Virus record (IMG/VR): IMGVR_UViG_3300008952_000326
Coordinates: 1 to 22,505 of that record
DNA length: 22,505 bases
Direction: 5' to 3' (one strand)
Source of the DNA: a virus
Below, one piece after another: positions 1,705 to 22,505 of the stretch (its first letter is position 1; every line of letters starts with the position of its first letter). A program made the position numbers and the translations under genes. The notes below the pieces were generated by a model that saw nothing but the letters and a program-made list of their open reading frames with translations, did not search any database and was not told where the DNA came from.

Positions 1705-2174
1705 TACGCATTCCTCCAGTTGCTTGCTTTAAATGTATGCTCCGGGCTAGTCTTCTTTGTATTTGCGTTAATCATTTCTTTGAACGAGAAATCTATTGCG
1801 GCCTGACGAGCTTCCTCCTCAGCCTCCATCTGTTCAAGAACTGCCCACTTACTCATATCGTATTCTTGTTGAGCCTGCTGTGCATAGTAGTCTGCTTGGG
1901 CTGCAACAGCATCCTCTCCACCAATAGCGCCACCGATTTGGTTGCCAAGACTAGCGCCTGCCAATGTTGTTGGTATCCCAACAGCGGGGCCACCGAAGAA
2001 GCCGAACGCGCCCGTGAGTCCACCAAGCAATGTACCAAGCCACGATCCAAAGCTCTGCTGATCTGCGGCGTGTTCCATTCTTGCGGTGCTGATGTTCTGA
2101 TATTCTGGAGGAAGCTTTCTCTTTGTCTTCCGCTTCTTGCGTATGATGCTTCTATTGGGATCTTCCATTGCCAT
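1704..2174 (-). CDS. Hypothetical structural protein with glycine-rich hydrophobic core, 156 aa
   Basis: The protein has three visible parts. The N-terminus is basic (RKKRKTKRK, about residues 12-20). Residues 41-87 form a glycine-rich hydrophobic segment with repeated small-residue motifs (WLGTLLGGL, GNQIGGAIGG). The alanine- and glutamine-rich C-terminal part (AAQADYYAQQAQQEYDMSKW and onwards) is predicted helical, perhaps coiled-coil. Hydrophobic glycine-rich segments followed by Ala/Gln helices occur in phage internal virion or DNA-ejection proteins, so a minor virion protein is a reasonable guess. It overlaps the large terminase stop by one base and the 80-aa gene start by one base. The family was not recognised. 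Confidence 0.75.
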   Translation of the reverse strand: MAMEDPNRSIIRKKRKTKRKLPPEYQNISTARMEHAADQQSFGSWLGTLLGGLTGAFGFFGGPAVGIPTTLAGASLGNQIGGAIGGEDAVAAQADYYAQQAQQEYDMSKWAVLEQMEAEEEARQAAIDFSFKEMINANTKKTSPEHTFKASNWRNA

Positions 2175-3607
2175 TAGAACTCGCTCCAGTTTCCGGCCTT
2201 CTGCCTGTTATGATACCTACTGAGGGAGAAAACATTTTCAGTTGGCTCCTCTTTAGGTATCTCTCCCATAGGAGATTTGTCAATAAATAGTAAGGAAAAA
2301 CCTATCGCCATACACAGATCTTTCTTCCCGTCAAACTTCTCATGCCTATTAACATGAAGGCTGTCGCACTCTTCGGCTAGTTCAGATGGGCCTGCCAGTG
2401 AGCCATCTTCCACTTTCCTCTTCACCGCGAGCAGACCTTGGTACTGTCTTGCCTGAGAAGTCTTAGCTTCGATCACTGGTATGCCTCTAGCTCTAGCTGC
2501 TTGCACCGTCGCCAACCCGATGCCGTTAGACTCAATAACTACACTGCCACCATATATTTGATAAGCTGCGCGTACGAAATCCGCAAGGGTGTCAATGGTA
2601 GCATCCTCGTCTACCCACGTTGCAACTAGGGACAAATCGCTTTTTTGTATAACGGCAATGGCGCTTGCGTCCTTGCCTAAGCCTCCAGCTGTATCGACAC
2701 CTATAACATATTCCTCAAGCTGTTGTTTAGGTTTGAATATCTTCAAGCCCTGCATCATTGTATGTGCCAACACTGGAGGAGTTAAGTCGATCCATCTTCC
2801 CTCCGCCGACATGAATGCGTGTTCTGGTCTTTGCGGATATTCCCGCAAAGCCCGAACAAGATGGCCTTGGAATCTATTGTTAAGGGTTTCCTTAAACCAA
2901 GCCGCAGCGTTTGGTTCTGTAAACCCAAGATCCTGCATCTCCCGCCACTCTTCTGCTGTTAAGGGTAGGTCTGATCGATATGCTTGGTGATCCTCTACCG
3001 AAAAGAACAGCTTGGCAAACTCATTCTTTTCTGTCCAAAGTCTCCACATCAAATCGCCGGGACCAGATGATGTTGACTCGATAAGGATTGGTGCAGACAA
3101 TCCAGCCGAACTAGCCAACGCGCCAAAGGCATCTTGATCTGGCCAGAACGCCAGCTCCGAAAGGTGCAGCATCTGGAAGCTCATAGATCTCCCAGCCTTG
3201 GATTGTTCCTGTCCTTTCGCTGCGTTAGCAGTAACGGCATGGACTTCCGATCCTTCTCTCGTTACTATCTTAGATCGGTTAGATATTCTCAGCGGTACTT
3301 CAAGATCGCGGTACACCTCACGAACACGGTCCAGTAAACCGTGGACCTTTTGTTCCGTGTCGGCCACAACCGCGACCTTGGCACCGGGATTCAGAATAGT
3401 ATAGACGGCATCCAGAAAACAACAAATCTGCGAGCAACCAATCTGCCTGCTCTTTAGGATGATAATGTTCCGCGATTCGTGGGCCGCCTTCAAGATCCTT
3501 TCTTGTTCCTCATACACCTGAAACTGTATGGGTTTCCCACTCACCTGATCTGTTATCCTGCACAGGCTCGCCAGCATCTTCATCTTTTTTGGATTCGGAA
3601 AAGTCAT
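2174..3607 (-). CDS. terL: Terminase large subunit (packaging ATPase and nuclease)
   Basis: TerL is the motor that cuts concatemeric DNA and drives it through the portal. The N-terminal ATPase has a terminase-style Walker A (LKSRQIGCSQ, residues 51-60) and a Walker B ending in the catalytic glutamate (MLHLSELAFW, E151). A STSSGPGD coupling-motif region lies near residues 178-186. The typical link YPQRPEHAFM is at 257-266. The C-terminal RNase H-like nuclease shows GVDTAGG (D305) and VVIESNG (E359), with a further acidic/basic motif near KKDLCMAIGF. The length, 477 aa, is normal. The ATG at 3607 has a GAGAGGG ribosome site upstream but lies 98 nt inside the upstream gene. Internal ATGs at 3583 and 3577 would give slightly smaller overlaps and are possible alternative starts. 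Confidence 0.95.
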   Translation of the reverse strand: MTFPNPKKMKMLASLCRITDQVSGKPIQFQVYEEQERILKAAHESRNIIILKSRQIGCSQICCFLDAVYTILNPGAKVAVVADTEQKVHGLLDRVREVYRDLEVPLRISNRSKIVTREGSEVHAVTANAAKGQEQSKAGRSMSFQMLHLSELAFWPDQDAFGALASSAGLSAPILIESTSSGPGDLMWRLWTEKNEFAKLFFSVEDHQAYRSDLPLTAEEWREMQDLGFTEPNAAAWFKETLNNRFQGHLVRALREYPQRPEHAFMSAEGRWIDLTPPVLAHTMMQGLKIFKPKQQLEEYVIGVDTAGGLGKDASAIAVIQKSDLSLVATWVDEDATIDTLADFVRAAYQIYGGSVVIESNGIGLATVQAARARGIPVIEAKTSQARQYQGLLAVKRKVEDGSLAGPSELAEECDSLHVNRHEKFDGKKDLCMAIGFSLLFIDKSPMGEIPKEEPTENVFSLSRYHNRQKAGNWSEF

Positions 3608-4084: not shown

Positions 4085-4500
4085 CCTTGGTCTTCCCGAC
4101 AGGGCCACTTCGTTGCCCCTATCCTATAAGGTATGAACTACTAGCGTAGCTCACTTAATTTGTTTTAGTAAATCTGAATACCTTACTCTTACTATTCTTT
4201 ATTCTAACTATCTTCCCTATATCTAACCTTCCCTTCCCCCATATCCCCCTTGTATCCTATCCCCCCTTTGTGAAAGAGAGAACCCCTTACCTACTATACT
4301 ATACTTAATACATATACATTACATATACATTATTATTATTATATATATAATATATATATAATTGTTTTTTTAAAACCCTCGGGTAAATACCCCATATCTT
4401 ATTTAGATTTATTATTATTTAAATTAAAATTATCTAATTCATTGATACTAAAAAGTTCATCCATTTCATTCACCTACTTACTCTAGGCTCCCCCCCTCCG

Positions 4501-4559
4501 CCCCAACCCAACACAACCAACACAACCCAACCAACACCAACACCACTACTAACCAACAA
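4501..4559. other. 59-nt G-free C/A tract (G/T-rich on minus strand)
   Basis: The plus strand has no G for 59 nt and is almost entirely C and A in CCAAC/CCAACA units. The minus strand is therefore a string of GTTGG and GTGTTGG units with many GG pairs, which could form two-quartet G-quadruplexes. It lies between the A+T-rich section and the dyad cluster. The composition is directly visible; a function is not. Confidence 0.5.
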
Positions 4560-4664
4560 GCTATGTAAACTAAATAAGACAAACACCACCCAATCCGCAA
4601 GGCTCCCGATCTTCCGATCTGCCCACCCTATCCCTATCCCTCACTTCGTTCGGGACTATACTTC

Positions 4665-4896: not shown

Positions 4897-4920
4897 CATC
4901 ACTGCATTCTACGCTTCACC

Positions 4921-5117
4921 TTCGTTCGCTATATCTCCGATGGGTCTACGCTCACCTGCGTTCGCTATGCCTCCGGCGGTTCCACGCTTCGCATTCGCTC
5001 GCTATATCTGCGATGCTGCTACGCTCGCTTGCGCTCGCTATATCTCCGATGGTCCACGGTCGCTTCGCTCCCTCCTGCCTTCGGCCTTCTTCGCTCCGCT
5101 ATATCTGCGATGCTGAC
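4921..5117. repeat. Degenerate array of about 36-bp units
   Basis: The core CGCTATATCTSCGATG recurs at 4927, 5000, 5036 and 5097, with a more diverged copy (CGCTATGCCTCCGGCG) at 4963. Successive spacings are 36, 37, 36 and 61 bp. The intervening sequence also repeats loosely as TCTACGCTCRC. The array ends about 20 bp before the first copy of the early-gene leader repeat. It could be an iteron-like replication or protein-binding array, or a decayed non-coding repeat. It is not CRISPR-like: the units are imperfect and the intervening sequence is itself repeated. Confidence 0.6.
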
Positions 5118-5136: not shown

Positions 5137-5170
5137 CTTAGTTAAATGCAAAGCATTGAAAACAAAGGAG
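5137..5170 (+). promoter_or_regulatory. Early-gene leader repeat, copy 1 (stem-loop plus Shine-Dalgarno)
   Basis: This 34-bp element begins CTTAGTTAAATGC and ends AACAAAGGAG. It matches 33 of 34 bases at 5748-5781 and shares its first 25 bases with copy 2. Within it AATGC (5145-5149) and GCATT (5153-5157) can pair around AAA, placing a small stem-loop just upstream of the AAAGGAG ribosome site of the next gene. Confidence 0.7.
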
Positions 5171-5176
5171 ATACTC

Positions 5177-5374
5177 ATGAAACAAATATACTATGTGTTC
5201 CTTACCGAAGGCCGCGACGATCAGTTCACCTTTGACCTTGGTCATGACTTCACTTCCGTAGTCGCAGAGATCGTCGAGATCTATGGCCGCAAGAACGTAC
5301 TCGGCATCGATCCCATTGATGCTGATGGCGAACGCATCAACATCGGCTACCGCATCGGAGATCCTATCTCCTAA
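5177..5374 (+). CDS. Hypothetical early protein, 65 aa
   Basis: First rightward gene after the divergent region. The start chosen is the ATG at 5177, six bases after AAAGGAG. A TTG at 5156 is in frame but lies inside the leader repeat upstream of the ribosome site, so it is rejected. The product is small and acidic, begins MKQIYYVFLTEGRDDQFTFD and includes VVAEIVEIYGRKNVLGIDPIDADGERINIGYRIGDP. It has no signal peptide, membrane segment or known motif that I recognise. The short alternating hydrophobic/charged pattern would suit a compact alpha/beta fold. The gene is followed within 20 bp by the second leader repeat, so each of the first genes appears to have its own expression cassette. Confidence 0.7.
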   Translation: MKQIYYVFLTEGRDDQFTFDLGHDFTSVVAEIVEIYGRKNVLGIDPIDADGERINIGYRIGDPIS

Positions 5375-5417
5375 CCCAAGGCAAACGCTTCGCTTAGTTA
5401 AATGCAAAGCATTGAAA
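5374..5417 (+). promoter_or_regulatory. Early-gene leader repeat, copy 2
   Basis: This 44-bp element matches 42 of 44 bases at 5729-5772. It starts at ACCCAAGGCAAACGCT, a portion absent from copy 1, and continues through CTTAGTTAAATGC and the AATGC/GCATT stem. The Shine-Dalgarno GAGGAG of the next gene follows at once (5418-5423). Confidence 0.7.
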
Positions 5418-5428
5418 GAGGAGAAGTT

Positions 5429-5752
5429 ATGCAAGTCATGAACATAAAGCAGCATGGTAAAGCGCAGGTGTACATCGGCCGCCCTTCGGTCTACGGAAAT
5501 CCTTTCCGCCCAACCGAACGGTCAGCCGCTGCACACCACAAAGTTTGCACCCAATACAAAAAGTATTTGTGGCACAAACTTTGTAACAGCCCGTCCTTTG
5601 TCCTTCAAGTCCGTGGACTTAAAGGCAAAACCCTTGGCTGTTTCTGCAAGCCCTTGCCATGTCATGGCGACGTGCTTGCAGCAGCCATCGCTTGGTTACA
5701 CAGCGATGAAGGCAAGGCTGTCTTCGACACCCAAGGCAAACGCTGCGCTTAG
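5429..5752 (+). CDS. DUF4326-family protein, 107 aa
   Basis: Two family signatures are clear: an N-terminal VYIGRPSVYGNPF (residues 14-26) and a C-terminal LGCFCKPLPCHGDVL (69-83). These match the DUF4326 family, found in many phages and bacteria. Its molecular function is not established; the conserved Cys/His set (C71, C73, C78, H79, D81) suggests metal binding or catalysis. The length is typical. The start is the ATG at 5429, five bases after GAGGAG. The in-frame ATG at 5402 lies inside the leader repeat and is rejected. The 3' end of the gene (QGKRCA and the stop codon) is itself encoded by the next leader repeat, so the repeat and the gene end overlap. Confidence 0.85.
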   Translation: MQVMNIKQHGKAQVYIGRPSVYGNPFRPTERSAAAHHKVCTQYKKYLWHKLCNSPSFVLQVRGLKGKTLGCFCKPLPCHGDVLAAAIAWLHSDEGKAVFDTQGKRCA

Positions 5753-5781
5753 TTAAATGCAAGGCATTGAAAACAAAGGAG
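5729..5781 (+). promoter_or_regulatory. Early-gene leader repeat, copy 3
   Basis: This copy combines both halves: the upstream ACCCAAGGCAAACGCT part shared with copy 2 and the downstream AACAAAGGAG part shared with copy 1. The loop of the stem changes from AAA to AAG, while both arms (AATGC, GCATT) are unchanged. Its first half codes for the C-terminus of the DUF4326 protein. A Shine-Dalgarno GGAG at 5778-5781 serves the next gene. Confidence 0.7.
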
Positions 5782-5787
5782 AACATC

Positions 5788-5997
5788 ATGGTCTACAACA
5801 ACAAACTTACATTCAAGCAATGGTGCGAACACATGGGATACACCTACACTTTTCAAGGCAACAAGTTCGAGCAACGTGTAGCTCAGTACGAAGCTTATCT
5901 CTTTGATCCTCAGTGCGACAAGTACCCTGACAACATCGAACTCCCTCCAGAGTTTGACACAACTGAACCACACTTGGCATCATGGATGCAGGAGTAA
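5788..5997 (+). CDS. Hypothetical early protein, 69 aa
   Basis: The start is the ATG at 5788 in the box GGAGAACATCATG. The upstream in-frame TTG at 5767 is part of the leader repeat. The product begins MVYNNKLTFKQWCEHMGYTY and is rich in aromatic and acidic residues (DPQCDKYPDNIELPPEFDTT). The opening resembles a short helix-turn-helix-like segment (LTFKQWCEHMGYTYTF), but this is too weak to assign. No membrane segment. It is separated from the next gene by four bases and is probably cotranscribed with it. Confidence 0.65.
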   Translation: MVYNNKLTFKQWCEHMGYTYTFQGNKFEQRVAQYEAYLFDPQCDKYPDNIELPPEFDTTEPHLASWMQE

Positions 5998-8312: not shown

Positions 8313-8333
8313 CTAATAAGCATAGCTTATTAG
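8313..8333. other. 9-bp perfect stem-loop
   Basis: CTAATAAGC (8313-8321), loop ATA, GCTTATTAG (8325-8333). It lies seven bases after the terminator and directly abuts the next hairpin. It lacks a G+C-rich stem, so a protein-binding or processing site is as likely as termination. Confidence 0.55.
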
Positions 8334-8373
8334 TTTATGTATGTTGTTTGTTTTTGCAAACAACATACATAAA
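8334..8373. other. 17-bp perfect stem-loop
   Basis: TTTATGTATGTTGTTTG (8334-8350) is the exact reverse complement of 8357-8373, around a six-base loop TTTTTG. It is the longest perfect hairpin noticed in the window. It lies 15 bp before a sigma70-like promoter and 61 bp before the ardC-like gene. Confidence 0.65.
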
Positions 8374-8434: not shown

Positions 8435-9313
8435 ATGCAACGTAAAACTAAAGACGATATTATACAGGGAGTTACATCCTCGATTCTTTCTCAGCTTGAG
8501 AAAGGTGTCGTGCCTTGGCAGTCTCCCTATCTCAAACAGCAAAGCATTAACGGTCACGTTTACCGTGGCCTCAACACTTTGATCCTGAACCTCGAAGCTA
8601 TGACCAACAACTACCAGTCTCCCTACTGGCTTACGTCTAACGCAGTGCGTAAACGTGAGGGACACATAGCCAAAGGCTCGAAGGCAACAACCATCGTTTA
8701 CAATGGTTGGAACAAATCCGACAGGCTCGATCAAGACGGAAAAGAAATCTGGTATCCAGTCTTTAAGTCTTGGTCAGTCTTCAACCTTGATCAATGCTGC
8801 TTCGATGATCACAGCTTTCTTGACTGGATACCGGAACAGTCTGAGTCAAAGCAGACCGAACAGATAATCAGAGATTATCTTGAACGGGAAAACATTCCGC
8901 TCACCCACCTTGCAGGCATGGCGAGCTACAGTCCGAAGAAGGACAGAATCAACTGCCCTTCTCCTTCTGCTTTGACAGACCCCAAGCACTACTACCCAAC
9001 TCTGTTTCACGAGATGGGTCACAGCACAGGAGCTGCATCTCGTCTTAACAGAGAAGGCATCACAGACTTCGACGCCTTTGGCTCACACCAATACGGCGTC
9101 GAAGAACTCGTGGCCGAGATGACGGCAGCTTACCTGTGTGGCTACACTGGAAGCAGCATGGATTGCCAAGAGCAATCGGCTGCTTACATTGCTCACTGGT
9201 ACAAGCAGATCAAAGAAGATCCTTCGATCCTTCAGACTGCTTGCACCGAAGCAGAGAAAGCCTTCCAGTATATACTGGAAGGTAAACACAACATGGAAAA
9301 CAAGGAGAGTTAA
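8435..9313 (+). CDS. ardC: ArdC-like antirestriction protein with zinc metallopeptidase domain, 292 aa
   Basis: ArdC proteins combine an N-terminal ssDNA-binding domain with a C-terminal metallopeptidase-like domain and protect incoming DNA from host restriction. Here residues 1-120 carry the N-domain pattern (KGVVPWQSPY, NGHVYRGLNTLIL, SPYWLTSNAV, KGSKATTIVYNGW). The C-domain has the zinc motif HEMGHSTG (H192, E193, H196) and a downstream EELVAEMTAAYL whose acidic residues likely provide the third ligand. The length is normal for the family. The ATG at 8435 follows AAAGG at a suitable distance. The gene heads the second early block and has its own promoter-like sequence. A perfect 22-bp palindrome (9261-9282) sits in its 3' end. 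Confidence 0.9.
   Translation: MQRKTKDDIIQGVTSSILSQLEKGVVPWQSPYLKQQSINGHVYRGLNTLILNLEAMTNNYQSPYWLTSNAVRKREGHIAKGSKATTIVYNGWNKSDRLDQDGKEIWYPVFKSWSVFNLDQCCFDDHSFLDWIPEQSESKQTEQIIRDYLERENIPLTHLAGMASYSPKKDRINCPSPSALTDPKHYYPTLFHEMGHSTGAASRLNREGITDFDAFGSHQYGVEELVAEMTAAYLCGYTGSSMDCQEQSAAYIAHWYKQIKEDPSILQTACTEAEKAFQYILEGKHNMENKES
9261..9282. promoter_or_regulatory. Perfect 22-bp palindrome near the end of the ardC-like gene
   Basis: CCTTCCAGTAT (9261-9271) is followed immediately by its exact reverse complement (9272-9282), with no spacer. It encodes AFQYILEG in the ardC-like gene and lies 31 bp upstream of the next start codon. A site of this form suits a dimeric regulator or a nuclease better than an RNA hairpin, because it has no loop. 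Confidence 0.55.
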
Positions 9314-10219: not shown

Positions 10220-10624
10220 ATGGCAGTACGTGGCTTTAACCGTTTGATAATCTCAGGTCGGCTTGGCGCTGATCCTGAGTTGAATACCAAAAGTAAAATC
10301 CCAGTGTGTCAACTTAGCGTTGCCACACCGGGCAAGATGTCCGATGGCGAGCAAACCGTTGAATGGGTCAAGGTTGTTTGCTTTGGCAATCAAGCTGAAT
10401 CATGCAGCAAGTACCTAACCAAAGGGCGAGAAGTTCTGGTTGAAGGCAGGCTTCAAACAGATCGCTACACAGGAAAAGATGGAGTCGAAAGATTCTCCTC
10501 CAAGTGTGTAGCGAATCAAGTCCACTTCATCGGGAGCGGTGGTGATGCCAAAGCAAAACCAAAGCAAGAAGAAACATCGGAGTCGTATGACTTCGGCGGA
10601 GCTGATGCTTACACGCCATTCTAA
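10220..10624 (+). CDS. ssb: Single-stranded DNA-binding protein, 134 aa
   Basis: A classical bacterial-type SSB coats ssDNA and recruits partners through its C-terminal tip. The OB fold is complete: FNRLIISGRLGADPELNTKS, VCQLSVATPGKM, EWVKVVCFGNQAESCSKYL, KGREVLVEGRLQTDRYTGKD and CVANQVHFIGSG. A short Lys/Glu-rich linker leads to the C-terminal end GGADAYTPF; the terminal Pro-Phe is the conserved interaction tip, though fewer acids precede it than in the usual DDDIPF. AAAGGAG precedes the ATG at 10220. Its last 80 bp are also read in another frame by the sigma-like gene. Confidence 0.95.
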   Translation: MAVRGFNRLIISGRLGADPELNTKSKIPVCQLSVATPGKMSDGEQTVEWVKVVCFGNQAESCSKYLTKGREVLVEGRLQTDRYTGKDGVERFSSKCVANQVHFIGSGGDAKAKPKQEETSESYDFGGADAYTPF

Positions 10625-11108
10625 GATAGTTGATTACTACCTTAGAAACTTTACGGTCCCGCATTCCTACGCTGGAGGCAAGGAAGACTTGCGTCAGGTC
10701 GGACTGCTTGGACTCGTGAAGGCAGACCAAACTTGGAACAAAGAGAAATCTTCGTTCCAAGTTTGGGCTTGGTATTGGATACGAAGCTTCATCAGAGATG
10801 AGATAAAGAAACACAAACCAATAGACCGTAGTCTTGATTTGCTTTATCCTAACGTATCCAACCCAGAACAGACAATCTACCTGAACACCGTAGTCTCGGA
10901 GTTCAATGGTAGAGACAGAGAAATGCTCGGCAGGTTTTGTTGTGGACAAAACACTACCGAGATAGGTAAGGCGTGGGGCATAAGCAGACAGGCTGTTGAC
11001 CAACGTCTAGCAAAGGTACTCGGTAAACTAAAGAAGGAGTTAGCTTATGCCAAACCTAACGATGTTAAACGCCTCAGAGTTCTTCAGCATTCCGCCAAAG
11101 AAACTTGA
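10545..11108 (+). CDS. Phage-encoded sigma-factor-like protein, 187 aa
   Basis: Sigma factors direct RNA polymerase to promoters. Region 2-like sequence occupies about residues 45-90 (KEDLRQVGLLGLVKADQTWN, then FQVWAWYWIRSFIRDEIKKH), matching the core-binding and -10 recognition helices. Region 4-like sequence lies at about 113-166 (NGRDREMLGRFCCGQNTTEI, then a helix-turn-helix GISRQAVDQRLAKVLGKLKK). The length fits a two-domain sigma. The ATG at 10545 has GGGAG eight bases upstream; a GTG at 10539 and ATGs at 10587 and 10605 are alternatives. The gene starts 80 bp inside ssb and ends 62 bp inside the next gene, so its expression is coupled to both. It may switch transcription towards middle or late phage promoters. 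Confidence 0.75.
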   Translation: MPKQNQSKKKHRSRMTSAELMLTRHSKIVDYYLRNFTVPHSYAGGKEDLRQVGLLGLVKADQTWNKEKSSFQVWAWYWIRSFIRDEIKKHKPIDRSLDLLYPNVSNPEQTIYLNTVVSEFNGRDREMLGRFCCGQNTTEIGKAWGISRQAVDQRLAKVLGKLKKELAYAKPNDVKRLRVLQHSAKET

Positions 11109-12587: not shown

Positions 12588-13254
12588 TTTCGAATGGGAA
12601 GTTATCGACAGAGGAGAAATCATCGGCGGCTCGGATGTCGCAGCCATCCTCGGCTTTTCCAAGTGGACTACGCCACAGCAGCTTCTCGAAAGAAAAGCTC
12701 TTGGAAAAGAAGTCAAAGTAAACGAGCCAATGTTCTGGGGAACACAGCTCGAATCCGCTATCGCAGATGTCTACGCTGAACGGTACTGTGACGACGAGCA
12801 TACAATCTTTGACCCAGTTAAGGACTGGGACAAAGGGCATCAGGTTCGTCATCCCGATTACCCTTGGCTCGCAGCATCACCCGACAGGCTCATCCTCAAA
12901 GGAGACAAGATTGTCGGTGGCCTTGAGATTAAAAACATCGGCACCTTCTCTAAGAAATCGTGGAGAGAAGGAGTGCCGATCTACTACCAGACTCAAGCCC
13001 AGACCTACATGATGGTATTCGGTTTGCCATCATGGGAGTTCTATGTTCTCTGTGGAGGACAATCAGTATTCCATATTGAGCTTGAGGAGAATCCCACCAT
13101 GCAGGAAAAGATCCTTGCTGAAGGCGTCAAGTTTTACAGGATGCTCACCATGTGTGATAACCTGCTTATCGAAGAAGCTTTAAGTCAATACGAAAAACTA
13201 CTAGGAGAAGACAATGAAAAAAGAGACCACGCTATCCCGATGGGGAAGATATAA
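12574..13254 (+). CDS. YqaJ-type phage exonuclease (PD-(D/E)XK), 226 aa
   Basis: YqaJ/lambda-exonuclease-like enzymes resect double-stranded DNA ends so that an annealing protein can recombine them. All family signatures are visible: IIGGSDVAAILGFSKWTTP (residues 16-34), FWGTQLESAIADVY (54-67, E60), WLAASPDRLI (98-107, D104), GGLEIKN (115-121, E118 and K120), and YYQTQAQTYMMVFGL (137-151). The catalytic D...E-x-K is intact. The length is normal. The ATG at 12574 follows AAAGGA and overlaps the previous gene by 14 bp. It fits with the annealing protein and SSB upstream as a recombination set. Confidence 0.92.
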   Translation: MQLTDFEWEVIDRGEIIGGSDVAAILGFSKWTTPQQLLERKALGKEVKVNEPMFWGTQLESAIADVYAERYCDDEHTIFDPVKDWDKGHQVRHPDYPWLAASPDRLILKGDKIVGGLEIKNIGTFSKKSWREGVPIYYQTQAQTYMMVFGLPSWEFYVLCGGQSVFHIELEENPTMQEKILAEGVKFYRMLTMCDNLLIEEALSQYEKLLGEDNEKRDHAIPMGKI

Positions 13255-13555
13255 GACCATGATCAAGAACACCGTGGTCGAAGATACCGCATCGGATAAT
13301 CTCAACGAACGCATGGAAGAAGTTCTAAACACTGCCGTCGCGCTCGATCTTTGCAGCTCTGCTCTCGTTAAGCTCGCAGAGGAATGGGGCAATGAAGATG
13401 CGCATGACGACGTAATGGAAATAGGCTACGCCCTCCAACCGATAGCTGAAGCATTCCAAGAGCTAATGGTAACTGAGGTATCTATTGCCATATCAAAGGC
13501 ACAGTCTGAAAGAGAAAAGCCTTTTCGTTTTGCGATGAAGGGCGAGGAAGTTTAA
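13214..13555 (+). CDS. Hypothetical helical protein, 113 aa
   Basis: The ATG at 13214 follows AGGAGAAGACA and lies 41 bp inside the end of the YqaJ-type gene. After a basic N-terminus (MKKETTLSRWGRYKTMIKNT), the rest is predicted helical and acidic (NLNERMEEVLNTAVALDLCS, ALQPIAEAFQELMVTEVSIA). No motif or membrane segment. It is the last plus-strand gene before the inverted duplication, and its stop (13553-13555) is followed within 15 bp by the left-arm terminator. Operon position suggests a helper of DNA metabolism, without direct support. Confidence 0.65.
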   Translation: MKKETTLSRWGRYKTMIKNTVVEDTASDNLNERMEEVLNTAVALDLCSSALVKLAEEWGNEDAHDDVMEIGYALQPIAEAFQELMVTEVSIAISKAQSEREKPFRFAMKGEEV

Positions 13556-13570
13556 CACCCGACCCCGAAA

Positions 13571-13600
13571 CAAAAAGCTACACCTGCATCACAGCTTTTG
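13571..13600 (-). terminator. Terminator of the left-arm copy (also faces plus-strand reading)
   Basis: On the minus strand CAAAAGCT and AGCTTTTTG form the stem, separated by a 13-nt loop and ending in a T-run. The same outer stem occurs in the right arm at 15043-15072. On the plus strand it follows the stop of the 13214 gene by 15 bp and could end that operon too. Confidence 0.65.
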
Positions 13601-13608
13601 AATGTCGG

Positions 13609-13634
13609 CTTGTCCATCTAACAAGATGGACAAG
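13609..13634 (-). ncRNA. Conserved 3' stem-loop, left-arm copy
   Basis: CTTGTCCATCT and AGATGGACAAG form a perfect 11-bp stem with a 4-nt loop. It lies 8 nt before the terminator on the minus strand, the same distance as in the right arm. Two base pairs differ from the right arm, and in both the partner base has changed too, so pairing is preserved. Confidence 0.65.
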
Positions 13635-14161
13635 TTCACTCGTGTCTAATCGAGAGCATCTTCAGTATGCCACTCCTCGTCTTCATAGTGATTCCATCTT
13701 GGAACCGAATCCCTTGAGTCCCTTGCTCATGGGTACAGATTTTCCATAAGCTCATATTGAACACAGATAGCAGCCAAATCTTTCTCGGAACGAAAGCACC
13801 CCGTTAAGCAGCAGGATCTGCGCCTGACTTCCGTTGGATGGATGTTCTGTCCGTAGCAACAATCGCTGTTGCCCGGTACGCTTCAACATCTTCAAGGTGA
13901 TCCCGAATAACTTCATTCGTCGGGAAAGCCTTAACCAAGCAGCGAGCCATGCAGCGTCGATACGTGCGACCATGCCCCCATGCGTCACAATCAATCTCAC
14001 CCAAGTGCATTGATGACCTATGCGATATTCTCCAACACCCGGCGTCTTGGTGCGCCTTGGCCGATCTTCGAGGAAGACGTGTTATCTATCGAACTTTTCT
14101 TCCACAGAGCCAGCATCTTGTTGTGCAGTACAGATTTCGGCTTCGGGTTTTGATGCGTCAT
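13620..14161 (-). pseudogene. Frameshifted inverted copy of the 14480 gene
   Basis: The minus strand keeps an AAAGGAG ribosome site and an ATG at 14161 matching those of the intact gene, but the frame closes at 14015 after 48 codons. Homology then continues in another frame: QDAGCW..., EIDCDAWGHGRTY and YRATAIVATD correspond to QDLCDW..., KIDFECDEWEQGRTD and YRATAKQIVATD of the intact protein. That frame stops at 13804. Homology resumes again (KIW..., EQG, EDALD-like DNA) to the 3' stem-loop. At least two or three frameshifts are needed, so no full-length product can be made. The ribosome site and the 3' structure look better kept than the frame. Confidence 0.8.
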
Positions 14162-14321
14162 TGACTCACTCCTTTGTCAGTGTGGCCTAAGAGTGTGGGT
14201 TAGAGCTTCCGTCGGCCAGCAGAGCTGTCCCATTAACGGAATCCTACGGACGTGCCAAGCCTCGACGGTCCTCGAAAAGCCGACCAGCTACGACAACCTA
14301 AGCCACTCATGCACTCAGGGA

Positions 14322-14352
14322 CCCTTGACATTCCTCGGAGGAAAGTCAAGGG
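14322..14352. other. Imperfect hairpin near the centre of the inverted duplication
   Basis: CCCTTGAC (14322-14329) pairs with GTCAAGGG (14345-14352), continued by TTCC/GGAA after one A-A mismatch, leaving a small loop. It lies close to the midpoint between the two arm start codons (14161 and 14480). TTGACA at 14325 and its mirror TTGACT on the other strand resemble -35 boxes, but no matching -10 was found on either side. Confidence 0.45.
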
Positions 14353-14479
14353 CAAGGCAAGTCCCAGTGCTAGTGTCTTCATGGTTTGTCTTGCGTGGTC
14401 CATTAACTTTTCTCAAACCTTACTACGATTGTCACGGCTCTCCCCACGGGATTGGCCAAACACTAACAAGGAGATCATC

Positions 14480-15025
14480 ATGACTTTCAAAACCCTCACC
14501 GAAATCGCACAACAAGAAGCAGGCATCCGTGTTGAAAAGATCGTAGATAACTACGACTTCCTCTTGAACGGCCAAGACTTCCAAGACTTGTGTGATTGGG
14601 AATCTCGCATGGACATCTTCCGCACTTGGGACAAGATTGATTTTGAATGTGACGAATGGGAGCAAGGCCGCACCGACGCAGCATTGGCTCACCGCTTGGA
14701 GGCTTTCAACCGCCTCGATGAAGATATTCGGAATCAAGATTCCTTGAAAATGTTGAAGCATATGTACCGAGCAACAGCAAAGCAGATTGTTGCTACGGAC
14801 CATCCCTCCAACTGGAAGGCAGGCTTGCCCTGCAAGCTTAACGAGGAGCTTGCGTTCCTCCCCAAGAAAGATTTGATCTGCGTGATCAATATGATCTCAT
14901 GGAAAATCCATGAGCAAGGGGACATCAAGGGATACCAAGAATGGAATCACTACGAAGAAGAGGAGTCTGGAAAGAGCGAAGATGCTCTCGACCAGCCACT
15001 CGCTTCACTTGACCTTCTCTTATAG
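14480..15025 (+). CDS. Hypothetical acidic protein, intact member of an inverted gene pair, 181 aa
   Basis: The start is the ATG at 14480 in the box AAGGAGATCATCATG; an in-frame upstream ATG at 14252 lies in non-coding sequence without a ribosome site and is rejected. The product is acidic, probably mostly helical and rich in Trp and Asp (DLCDWESRMDIFRTWDKIDF; YRATAKQIVATDHPSNWKAG; CVINMISWKIHEQGDIKGYQ). The C-terminus is very acidic (YEEEESGKSEDALDQPLASL). No family or active site recognised. The stop codon lies inside a stem-loop (15008-15034), and a terminator follows. It has no other plus-strand gene close by, so it is probably transcribed alone. A frameshifted copy lies inverted upstream. 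Confidence 0.7.
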   Translation: MTFKTLTEIAQQEAGIRVEKIVDNYDFLLNGQDFQDLCDWESRMDIFRTWDKIDFECDEWEQGRTDAALAHRLEAFNRLDEDIRNQDSLKMLKHMYRATAKQIVATDHPSNWKAGLPCKLNEELAFLPKKDLICVINMISWKIHEQGDIKGYQEWNHYEEEESGKSEDALDQPLASLDLLL

Positions 15026-15034
15026 AAGGTCAAG
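15008..15034 (+). ncRNA. Conserved 3' stem-loop, right-arm copy
   Basis: CTTGACCTTCT (15008-15018) and AGAAGGTCAAG (15024-15034) form a perfect 11-bp stem with a 5-nt loop. The stop codon TAG of the 14480 gene (15023-15025) spans the loop and the start of the right arm. It is followed after 8 nt by the terminator. It differs from the left-arm copy at two paired positions, both compensated. Confidence 0.65.
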
Positions 15035-15042
15035 CCTCTCAT

Positions 15043-15072
15043 CAAAAGCTGCGCCTCCGGTGTAGCTTTTTG
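15043..15072 (+). terminator. Intrinsic terminator of the 14480 gene
   Basis: AAAAGCT (15044-15050) and AGCTTTT (15064-15070) form the stem, extended inside by GCGCC/GGTGT with G-T pairs, and a T-run follows (TTTTTG). On the minus strand the same sequence could end leftward transcription from the lysis genes. Confidence 0.8.
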
Positions 15073-15108
15073 TTTACCCACCCACCCAAGGGTGTTAAAC
15101 TTCCTCTT

Positions 15109-15459
15109 ATGAAGGTGGTGTTTGAAAAACACGAATCGATTATACTGGACTCAGTGAACGCATCCCCTGAATCCAGAAGACTCATCGCTTACATCAAAGG
15201 ACTTTTCTCCGGTGAGGTTGTAGGTGCTACACCTTTGATAGATGAAGATGATCCTTCCAGTTACGTAGTTCGATATGGTAGGGGTCCCATCCGAGGGCAA
15301 CTTGTTTCCCTCGACGCCAGTCACCACCCCATCGAATCTCAGGATGCTTCATCTTCAACTCGCGCCCAAGCCAAAGCCAGACGGCAAGAACATCGGGAAA
15401 GACAACTCGGCCTGACTTTACCCCTGTCTCCCACGGAGAAAAACCAGATAGATCGCTAA
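15109..15459 (+). CDS. Doubtful ORF, 116 aa, antisense to the endolysin 3' half
   Basis: An open frame starts at the ATG at 15109 (MKVVFEKHESIILDSVNASP, then ESRRLIAYIKGLFSGEVVG). The first 40 residues look protein-like and lie in the otherwise empty 15073-15226 gap. From about 15227 the frame runs antisense to the conserved M15 domain of the endolysin, so that part is probably a shadow. No ribosome site precedes the ATG, and the terminator at 15043-15072 separates it from any plus-strand promoter. It may be a remnant or chance frame. Confidence 0.25.
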   Translation: MKVVFEKHESIILDSVNASPESRRLIAYIKGLFSGEVVGATPLIDEDDPSSYVVRYGRGPIRGQLVSLDASHHPIESQDASSSTRAQAKARRQEHRERQLGLTLPLSPTEKNQIDR

Positions 15460-15697
15460 AGTTTTCCGTATCAAGAATCAAGTCTACCGCCATTCCGTGA
15501 CAGTGAGCGCCAGACTTCCCCTTGAGCTTGGATCTTCCTTCTTCAAAAAGATATGTCTGTCTCTCGGAGGATCGGTATGTCTCAAAGATTACGAGAGGCA
15601 AACCGTTCTCCTCGATAGTCTCTGCCACCTTTTCCCATATAGGGGAAAAGGTTGGACTTAGCTTTGACAGATCTTTCTCTACAGATTTAACGCTCAT
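15227..15697 (-). CDS. M15-family peptidase endolysin, 156 aa
   Basis: The enzyme cleaves peptide cross-links in peptidoglycan to lyse the host. The M15 (VanY / L-alanoyl-D-glutamate peptidase-like) zinc site is complete: AHCHGMAVDL with H65, G68 and D72, and WDPYHIEL with H141 and E143. Other family features are the substrate-groove segment ETYRSSERQTYLFEEGRSKL and IRWGGDW (121-127) just before the second zinc motif. There is no signal peptide, so export through a holin is expected. The start overlaps the upstream holin-like gene by four bases (ATGA). It is the last gene of the leftward lysis and virion operon. A 10-bp perfect stem-loop (15627-15652) lies in its early coding region. Confidence 0.92.
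   Translation of the reverse strand: MSVKSVEKDLSKLSPTFSPIWEKVAETIEENGLPLVIFETYRSSERQTYLFEEGRSKLKGKSGAHCHGMAVDLILDTENFSDLSGFSPWETGVKSGRVVFPDVLAVWLWLGRELKMKHPEIRWGGDWRRGKQVALGWDPYHIELRNWKDHLHLSKV
15627..15652 (-). other. 10-bp perfect stem-loop within the endolysin coding region
   Basis: ACCTTTTCCC (15627-15636) pairs perfectly with GGGAAAAGGT (15643-15652) around a six-base loop. In the mRNA it lies roughly 45-70 nt after the endolysin start codon. It could slow translation of the endolysin relative to the holin; this is not shown. Confidence 0.35.
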
Positions 15698-16032
15698 TTG
15701 TTCTTCAGCCTTAACGAGTTTTTTTTGCTGGACTCGTGCAGCACAGAGATAGTTCTCAAGATAACATTCTTTTCCCTCGCCTTTGGCTGTCGTCCTAGTT
15801 CTTCTGAAACGACCTTCAAAGCCTCAGCAATCTTGTCATCGATCTTGTTGTCTGACTTGCGAGCCATCTTCTCAATCGCGAAGTACGCGCCTTCAGCGAT
15901 GCGAGAGAGGGTGATCTCTTGCTCGTTGTTGAGCTTTGCCCTTAACAACTTGATGAGCCAAGGCAGTGCCATTGTTATAACTATCGGTAATCCAATATTG
16001 CCTACCATTCCTAAGAGTTCTAGCGTGATCAT
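15694..16032 (-). CDS. Putative holin, single TM segment, 112 aa
   Basis: One hydrophobic segment (about residues 5-31, ELLGMVGNIGLPIVITMALP, then WLIKLL) is followed by a long soluble helical part (IAEGAYFAIEKMARKSDNKI, DDKIAEALKVVSEELGRQPK). This N-terminal TM plus amphipathic helix resembles holins of the LL-H type. The position directly before the endolysin, with a four-base overlap, supports the call. Its start overlaps the stop of the 54-aa gene by four bases. A structural membrane protein is the main alternative. Confidence 0.55.
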   Translation of the reverse strand: MITLELLGMVGNIGLPIVITMALPWLIKLLRAKLNNEQEITLSRIAEGAYFAIEKMARKSDNKIDDKIAEALKVVSEELGRQPKAREKNVILRTISVLHESSKKNSLRLKNK

Positions 16033-21549: not shown

Positions 21550-22398
21550 CTATAGCAATCCAAACGGATCATTCGGGAGATGCTTGGGCTTTCTTTGCTG
21601 AAACATCTCCCCGTTCATAAGCCATCTTAAAAAGGGATGCTGTCTCTCTTCTTTTTCTTTTGGCTGCTCAACTTGAACTTCCTCAACCGTAACCTCTGGC
21701 TGTGCAGAGGTCGCTATATCCAGCGGCTCCATACCCTCAACAGGGTTGGTTAGCTGGGGAACGGTCGTTGTATTGATCACCACTGACGGTGTATCCGTCG
21801 GAGGTTCGAGCCAGCGATCCATGTAGTTCCTCTCTGGTGGAGGACCATACACAGAATCCACAGCACCGACCGCAGCCTGTATGGGGCTTAGGCCAGTGGC
21901 TCCTTGTGGGTTCTCCTTTAGGAAAGCATCTGCATAGTTTCTTTGATATTCATCGTTCATGAATATCTTGCTGCCTTGATTAACTGCCTTGTTGATTTTC
22001 TGTTTGGATTGCGAGATGATCGCCTGCTGCTGGGCAAGCAGTGCGGGATCATCCTGACCAATACCAGAAGCAATCAACGCTTCGGCTGTGTTAATCTTTA
22101 TCTGCTCTGTCGCGATAACATCCTCGATGCGCTGCATCGCGGCTTCTGTCTTTAGCGTTCGCGTTGCTTCAGACTGAGCTGCCGCCAAGTCTTTCGTTGC
22201 TTCCGCTTGCCCAATGGCATTAGCTGTCATGGCCGCATCTCTTAATGCGTTCATGATTTGCTCCTGCTGTTGAGCGCCATAGTTCGCCTTCCTTGTCTGG
22301 GCCATTCCCTGCTTCTGAAGCATTTTGGAATATGCGTCAGCCAAGGCTCTTGATCCTGATGATGCGTACGGTGGTGGTGCTGCTGCTGGTATAAACAT
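21550..22398 (-). CDS. Hypothetical virion protein with Ala-rich helical core, 282 aa
   Basis: The ATG at 22398 follows AAAGGAGAAGCC; this Shine-Dalgarno overlaps the stop of the upstream gene. Residues of about 17-145 are Ala/Gln/Glu-rich and helical (SRALADAYSKMLQKQGMAQT, NALRDAAMTANAIGQAEATK, EQIKINTAEALIASGIGQDD), a composition typical of internal virion or core proteins in podoviruses. The C-terminal half is proline- and Glu-rich with VEVQVEQPKEKEE-type charge, ending HPFLRWLMNGEMFQQRKPKH. It is the first complete gene of the leftward virion operon in this window. Function inferred from composition and position only. Confidence 0.65.
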   Translation of the reverse strand: MFIPAAAPPPYASSGSRALADAYSKMLQKQGMAQTRKANYGAQQQEQIMNALRDAAMTANAIGQAEATKDLAAAQSEATRTLKTEAAMQRIEDVIATEQIKINTAEALIASGIGQDDPALLAQQQAIISQSKQKINKAVNQGSKIFMNDEYQRNYADAFLKENPQGATGLSPIQAAVGAVDSVYGPPPERNYMDRWLEPPTDTPSVVINTTTVPQLTNPVEGMEPLDIATSAQPEVTVEEVQVEQPKEKEERQHPFLRWLMNGEMFQQRKPKHLPNDPFGLL

Positions 22399-22408
22399 GG
22401 CTTCTCCT

Positions 22409-22505
22409 TTATGCTGGGACGTAGATAACTAGGTCGCCTGATTTGTATTTGTTGTGAACAATCTCTTCGCCCCTGCTGTTGGTCACAGTAATGGTATCCC
22501 CGGTA
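22409..22505 (-). CDS. C-terminal end of an unidentified protein (N-terminus beyond window)
   Basis: Only the last 32 residues are present: TGDTITVTNSRGEEIVHNKY, then KSGDLVIYVPA and a stop (22409-22411). The sequence is beta-strand-rich, with glycine turns. It is the gene directly upstream of the 282-aa virion protein, and its stop is part of that gene's ribosome site. Too little is visible to assign a function. Confidence 0.6.
   Translation of the reverse strand, partial: TGDTITVTNSRGEEIVHNKYKSGDLVIYVPA

Follow-up and report, generated by a model that had tools for sequence, protein, structure and literature searches.

A 1.56-kb imperfect palindrome at a tailed-phage gene junction, with an intact orphan gene in one arm and a frameshifted copy in the other

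A phage moron is an accessory gene with its own promoter and terminator that is inserted between conserved genes. The entry of accessory genes into phage genomes is rarely visible; at the locus described here, the empty site is found in three relatives. In E. coli, inverted duplications centred on palindromes form via replication of hairpin-capped ends, as described for a large chromosomal duplication with a 246-bp interrupted palindrome in sbcDC recA mutants (PMC3315005), and template-switch (quasipalindrome) mutation has been documented for RNA stems (PMC8794818).

Like a moron, the present locus has an extra gene that is missing in relatives, lies exactly between two genes that are adjacent there, carries its own terminator and is without homologues. 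Unlike described morons, it is a head-to-head duplicate with one copy that appears dead, and a promoter scan found none. With the E. coli duplications it shares an inverted duplication around a hairpin-forming sequence, whereas those are large and chromosomal and the one reported here is interstitial, with arms of 0.77–0.79 kb and a mechanism that is proposed. The kind of event is already known, and the palindrome is a well-preserved scar with no evidence for a new regulatory device.

Geometry of the palindrome

The DNA analysed, 22,505 nucleotides of IMG/VR record IMGVR_UViG_3300008952_000326 (the window), is a tailed-phage fragment that encodes a terminase (2174–3607), an ArdC-like protein, a sigma-like protein, an AAA ATPase, a RecE/YqaJ exonuclease and an endolysin. 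Early genes lie to the left of the palindrome on the plus strand and structural genes to its right on the minus strand. The features of the locus are as follows.

13214–13555, plus strand: gene A, 113 aa, immediately preceding the putative insertion; homologous in one relative (L166), with positional counterparts in two others (G004 and G005)
13544–13560, plus strand: left terminal 17 bp, GAGGAAGTTTAACACCC, a perfect inverted match of 15090–15106; covers the gene A stop codon
13544–14337, minus strand: left arm, the putatively decayed copy, with leader, ribosome-binding site (RBS) AAGGAG, ATG, frameshifted coding part and 3' hairpins
13568–13605, minus strand: left-arm terminator-like hairpin, AAAAGCT...AGCTTTTTGTTT, with a core of 7–8 bp kept and the inner stem degraded
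13609–13634, minus strand: left-arm 11-bp perfect stem, CTTGTCCATCT/AGATGGACAAG, with two paired (compensatory) changes relative to the right-arm stem
14322–14352, no strand: central hairpin, CCCTTGACATTCCTC-G-GAGGAAAGTCAAGGG, at the midpoint of the palindrome
14338–15106, plus strand: right arm, intact copy, with leader, gene and terminator
14480–15025, plus strand: P181, intact orphan gene, 181 aa
15008–15034, plus strand: right-arm 11-bp perfect stem, CTTGACCTTCT/AGAAGGTCAAG, covering the P181 stop codon
15044–15075, plus strand: right-arm intrinsic terminator, AAAAGCTGCGCC-TCC-GGTGTAGCTTTTTGTTT, from folding
15090–15106, plus strand: right terminal 17 bp, GGGTGTTAAACTTCCTC, in which AAACTTCCTC repeats the gene A end in inverted orientation
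15109–15459, plus strand: gene B, 116 aa, adjoining the putative insertion; its start overlaps the gene A stop in three relatives

The original prediction described a large inverted duplication of about 70% identity, in which one copy is intact and the other broken, and both statements hold. The minus strand of the left arm aligns to the plus strand of the right arm with a local score of 392, against a best score of 31 in 100 shuffles, which rules out a chance alignment, and blastn gives 73.4% identity over 606 columns (E = 3e-37). Homology is indeed present at the predicted 13564–14240 and 14400–15075, although these limits are slightly too narrow; it extends over 13544–15106, centre included. 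Specifically, symmetry carries on through the leader and the centre in a global alignment with no unrelated spacer between the arms, the central hairpin marks the midpoint, and perfect inverted termini of 17 bp close the palindrome on either side. Taken together, 13544–15106 forms one single imperfect palindrome of 1563 bp. In line with this geometry, 14180–14480 is predicted to fold as a single long imperfect stem (z = −3.1).

Head-to-head palindromes are a typical product of chimera formation, which would fit an artefact of assembly or sequencing. However, identity between the arms reaches only 73%, and the palindrome recurs in another contig, IMGVR_UViG_3300008624_000042 (31,890 bp), which carries 13540–15110 at 100% identity while differing from the window at about 40 positions outside the palindrome. 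Because both arms recur letter for letter in a strain that differs elsewhere, an assembly or sequencing error is an unlikely source of the palindrome, to the point of being barely credible, as the original prediction had also held. The strain differences nearly all fall in two clusters, 4213–4621 and 22243–22433, which suggests recombination patches or variable loci. The further proposal that the arms supply gene variants by conversion finds no backing: neither arm differs between the two strains, and no transfer of sequence patches is seen.

Other hairpins, palindromes and inverted repeats occur elsewhere. Strong short hairpins lie at 8323–8373, 9261–9282 and 10724–10766 of the window, the second being a 22-bp perfect palindrome within the end of the ArdC-like gene. 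G004 has a 115-bp imperfect palindrome at 10591–10703, and L166 (reverse complement) has a 30-bp perfect inverted repeat pair at 2793–2822 and 4506–4535.

An empty junction in relatives and the orphan gene

Terminase relatives in IMG/VR share 56–82% identity. The locus is spanned in three relatives: G004 (3300033153_004569), G005 (3300002231_003612) and L166 (3300031886_001120). All three have the gene order exonuclease–A–B–endolysin, with the A stop overlapping the B start and with neither palindrome nor P181 at the junction, whereas in the window the palindrome separates A from B. L166 lay outside the direct P181 search; its A/B junction leaves no room for the gene, and the viral-contig scan with P181 did not recover it. 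Because A and B overlap in three relatives that lack both palindrome and P181, the entire 1.56 kb is most simply explained as an insertion at the A/B junction in this lineage, and parallel loss in three relatives would be less parsimonious. In viral contigs, no further junction-spanning relative came up with alignments of gene B, the endolysin or the 112-aa protein, nor did the endolysin alignment find one in genomes; scanning viral contigs for a 14-base pattern gave no useful information. No relative with an intact left-arm gene, which would have counted against the original prediction, was found; those close relatives whose sequence reaches across the locus have neither arm.

Next to the junction, gene B (15109–15459) and the endolysin gene (15227–15697) overlap antiparallel by 233 nt, and their matches overlap likewise in the three relatives. 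Rfam gave no matches within the window. A tRNA-associated insertion was considered and rejected, as no tRNA was found.

The right arm encodes a full 181-aa protein, as originally read from the open reading frame. P181 is acidic (37 D+E versus 21 K+R), and its composition and phage-like codon use lie inside the range of the phage's other genes; the deviating composition that is common, not obligatory, among morons is not seen. No homologue was found in phages, plasmids, Pfam, PHROGs or NCBIfam, and no match below E = 0.3 in the PDB. Among viral contigs only the near-identical contig matched, and no homologue was found in genomes, both scans being sensitive to close relatives only. PADLOC returned a weak partial match to a 2TM effector (E = 0.019, 39 residues), and single-sequence structure prediction gave a mean pLDDT of 35.7 and no usable model. 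The right arm carries its own intrinsic terminator, a 12-bp stem plus TTTTTGTTT at 15044–15075, which a simple pattern scan missed; a scan of 13200–15700 found no sigma-70-like promoter, and the phage has a sigma-like protein of its own. P181 is most simply viewed as an orphan, moron-like accessory gene. We infer that it is under selection chiefly because the right arm alone stays open; its intactness and composition are the whole basis for this, P181 having no homologue.

The perfect 17-bp termini and the precise placement at the A/B junction would also suit a mobile inverted-repeat element that bore P181 and inserted as a ready-made palindrome, and an inverted-repeat element had been among the original ideas. 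We regard it as distinctly unlikely: the palindrome has no internal recombinase or transposase gene, the flanks show no direct target-site duplication, the contig holds no second copy, and no P181 homologue turned up in the phages, plasmids, viral contigs and genomes searched. Moreover, the last codons of gene A, the neighbouring phage gene, lie inside the terminal repeat.

Decay of the left copy and its 3' hairpins

The left coding part (543 bp) differs from P181 by 66 substitutions, distributed 19/28/19 over the P181 codon positions, and by approximately 40 gap events, mostly not multiples of three; the corresponding totals for the entire arm are 93 and 65. The frameshifts that were originally noted are real, and far more numerous than the "two or three" given as a minimum. 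The arm does retain AAGGAG and the ATG, as had been pointed out, and the reading frame from the old ATG now runs for 47 codons. The codon-position count is frame-blind: the third-position share of 19/66 falls below an expected 0.425 (P = 0.015), an expectation that is a rough estimate assuming neutral synonymous change in the right arm. The absence of a third-position excess suggests that few of the changes lie in the right arm. With a homologous copy, frame-breaking indels and no codon-position constraint, the left coding region is predicted to be an unconstrained pseudogene.

The same count bears on whether the arms were two divergent paralogues, both functional for a while before the left one was lost. 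Both arms contain a complete leader–gene–terminator unit, as such a history would leave, whereas the lack of a third-position excess means that a period of shared coding constraint is not detectable. Two intact, divergent copies were found in no relative, and we consider this history highly improbable. The original premise that a broken copy in so compact a genome must be recent or useful is also weakened, since about 65 gap events speak for a copy of some age that nevertheless persists in the genome.

The spacing of differences fits random decay, as judged from perfect-match run lengths in simulations with equivalent numbers of substitutions, gaps and matches. On this comparison, the idea that selection disfavours long perfect stems was rejected (longest run 17, P = 0.22; weighted mean run 7.02, P = 0.35), and the matched simulation supersedes an earlier, poorly matched one that had hinted at a run-length difference. 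The mismatch spectrum is transition-poor (28 transitions versus 60 transversions; P = 0.013 when compared with terminase genes, using the terminase of a relative) and the difference spectrum is gap-rich. Template-switch mutation within the palindrome is one candidate cause. Relative to the right arm, TGTACY is inserted after AAATC twice in the left arm, at 13733–13742 and 14128–14137.

At the 3' ends, both arms fold better than shuffles, with z = −6.7 for 14990–15085 in the right arm and z of about −3.2 for the left 3' part. Within the left arm, these 3' hairpins alone look retained, in keeping with the original claim: the 11-bp stem is whole, and the terminator-like hairpin has its 7–8-bp core. 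Specifically, the right-arm stem CTTGACCTTCT/AGAAGGTCAAG has become CTTGTCCATCT/AGATGGACAAG in the left arm through two paired changes and is still perfect, an outcome with P = 8.6e-4 for four random substitutions, a value computed after the stem was noticed. Difference events per 100 nt amount to 25.8, 29.0 and 22.5 in the RBS/start and hairpin segments, compared with 15–22 in the coding part. Because the hairpin segments are overall no less diverged than the rest, any conservation in the left hairpins would concern only pairing rather than sequence. Template-switch mutations of the documented kind (PMC8794818) would yield just such paired changes that preserve a perfect stem; their action here is a candidate, and differs from the described cases in resting on two paired changes. 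Either the left 3' hairpins still serve, for example as an early operon end after gene A, or the paired changes come from a template switch.

These data also bear on the idea that the left arm works as a non-coding RNA, either a decoy that binds factors acting on the ends of P181 mRNA, as originally suggested, or an antisense source against P181. The retained RBS and ATG, the 11-bp stem kept via two paired changes (P about 9e-4) and the folding of the left 3' part all fit such a role. Nevertheless, the RBS/start and hairpin segments are as diverged as the coding part or more, the left arm retains few local stems (two, versus five in the right arm), the coding part appears unconstrained, and the 3' pairing could equally be a transcript-end structure or the product of a template switch. 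The support is thus faint and ambiguous, and we think the RNA role unlikely. We also entertain, as a doubtful reading, that the decayed arm is still used, its 3' hairpins, possibly along with a short transcript, acting at the early operon end or on P181 expression, and that a palindrome-driven, template-switch-rich mutation process alters the arm as well. Such a process is suggested by the gap-rich, transition-poor spectrum, the paired stem changes and the repeated TGTACY after AAATC.

Proposed origin by fold-back synthesis

Starting from the palindrome itself, the junction that is empty in three relatives, the left copy's frame-blind decay and the right copy's intactness, we propose an order of events, to which we assign a probability of roughly 0.7: a moron-like insertion between A and B was duplicated head to head by fold-back, after which the left copy decayed and the right copy was kept. 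In this scenario, P181 would have arrived with its leader and terminator on the minus strand beside gene A. DNA synthesis would then have folded back at the central hairpin, by a template switch or by copying of a hairpin-capped end, and would have copied the arm as far as the gene A end before rejoining at gene B. The right copy, codirectional with the early operon, may have been retained by selection for the P181 protein, while the redundant, opposing left copy would have decayed into a pseudogene whose 3' hairpins may persist as transcript ends on the gene A side.

The direction of copying is read from the two termini. The last codons of gene A, GAG GAA GTT T, form the left end of the palindrome, and AAACTTCCTC at the right terminus is the inverted copy of GAGGAAGTTT from these codons. 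Because the C-terminus of gene A, KGEEV in the window, resembles KGEVV in L166, the gene A end is probably ancestral phage sequence that was subsequently copied. An inverted copy of a neighbouring gene's end, still present in the insertion, points to fold-back synthesis, and its position beside gene B suggests copying from left to right, with P181 first beside gene A on the minus strand. This direction is moderately supported, by about 10 bp. Further points count against the proposed origin: no intermediate, whether a single-P181 insertion or a near-perfect palindrome, was found, the gap-rich, transition-poor spectrum is unexpected from plain point-mutation decay, and selection on P181, which has no homologue, is judged from its intactness and composition. 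If the proposed order is correct, the palindrome offers a built-in comparison on the same molecule, with one arm presumably under protein selection and the other decaying freely.

Other repeats occur in the window. Near-identical leaders of about 44 nt (CTTAGTTAAATGCAAAGCATTGAAA...) occur three times upstream of small early ORFs (5137–5179, 5374–5417 and 5729–5790), and an imperfect tandem array of about 35-nt units (CGCTATATCTCCGATGG...) lies at 4907–5115, within the large intergenic region.
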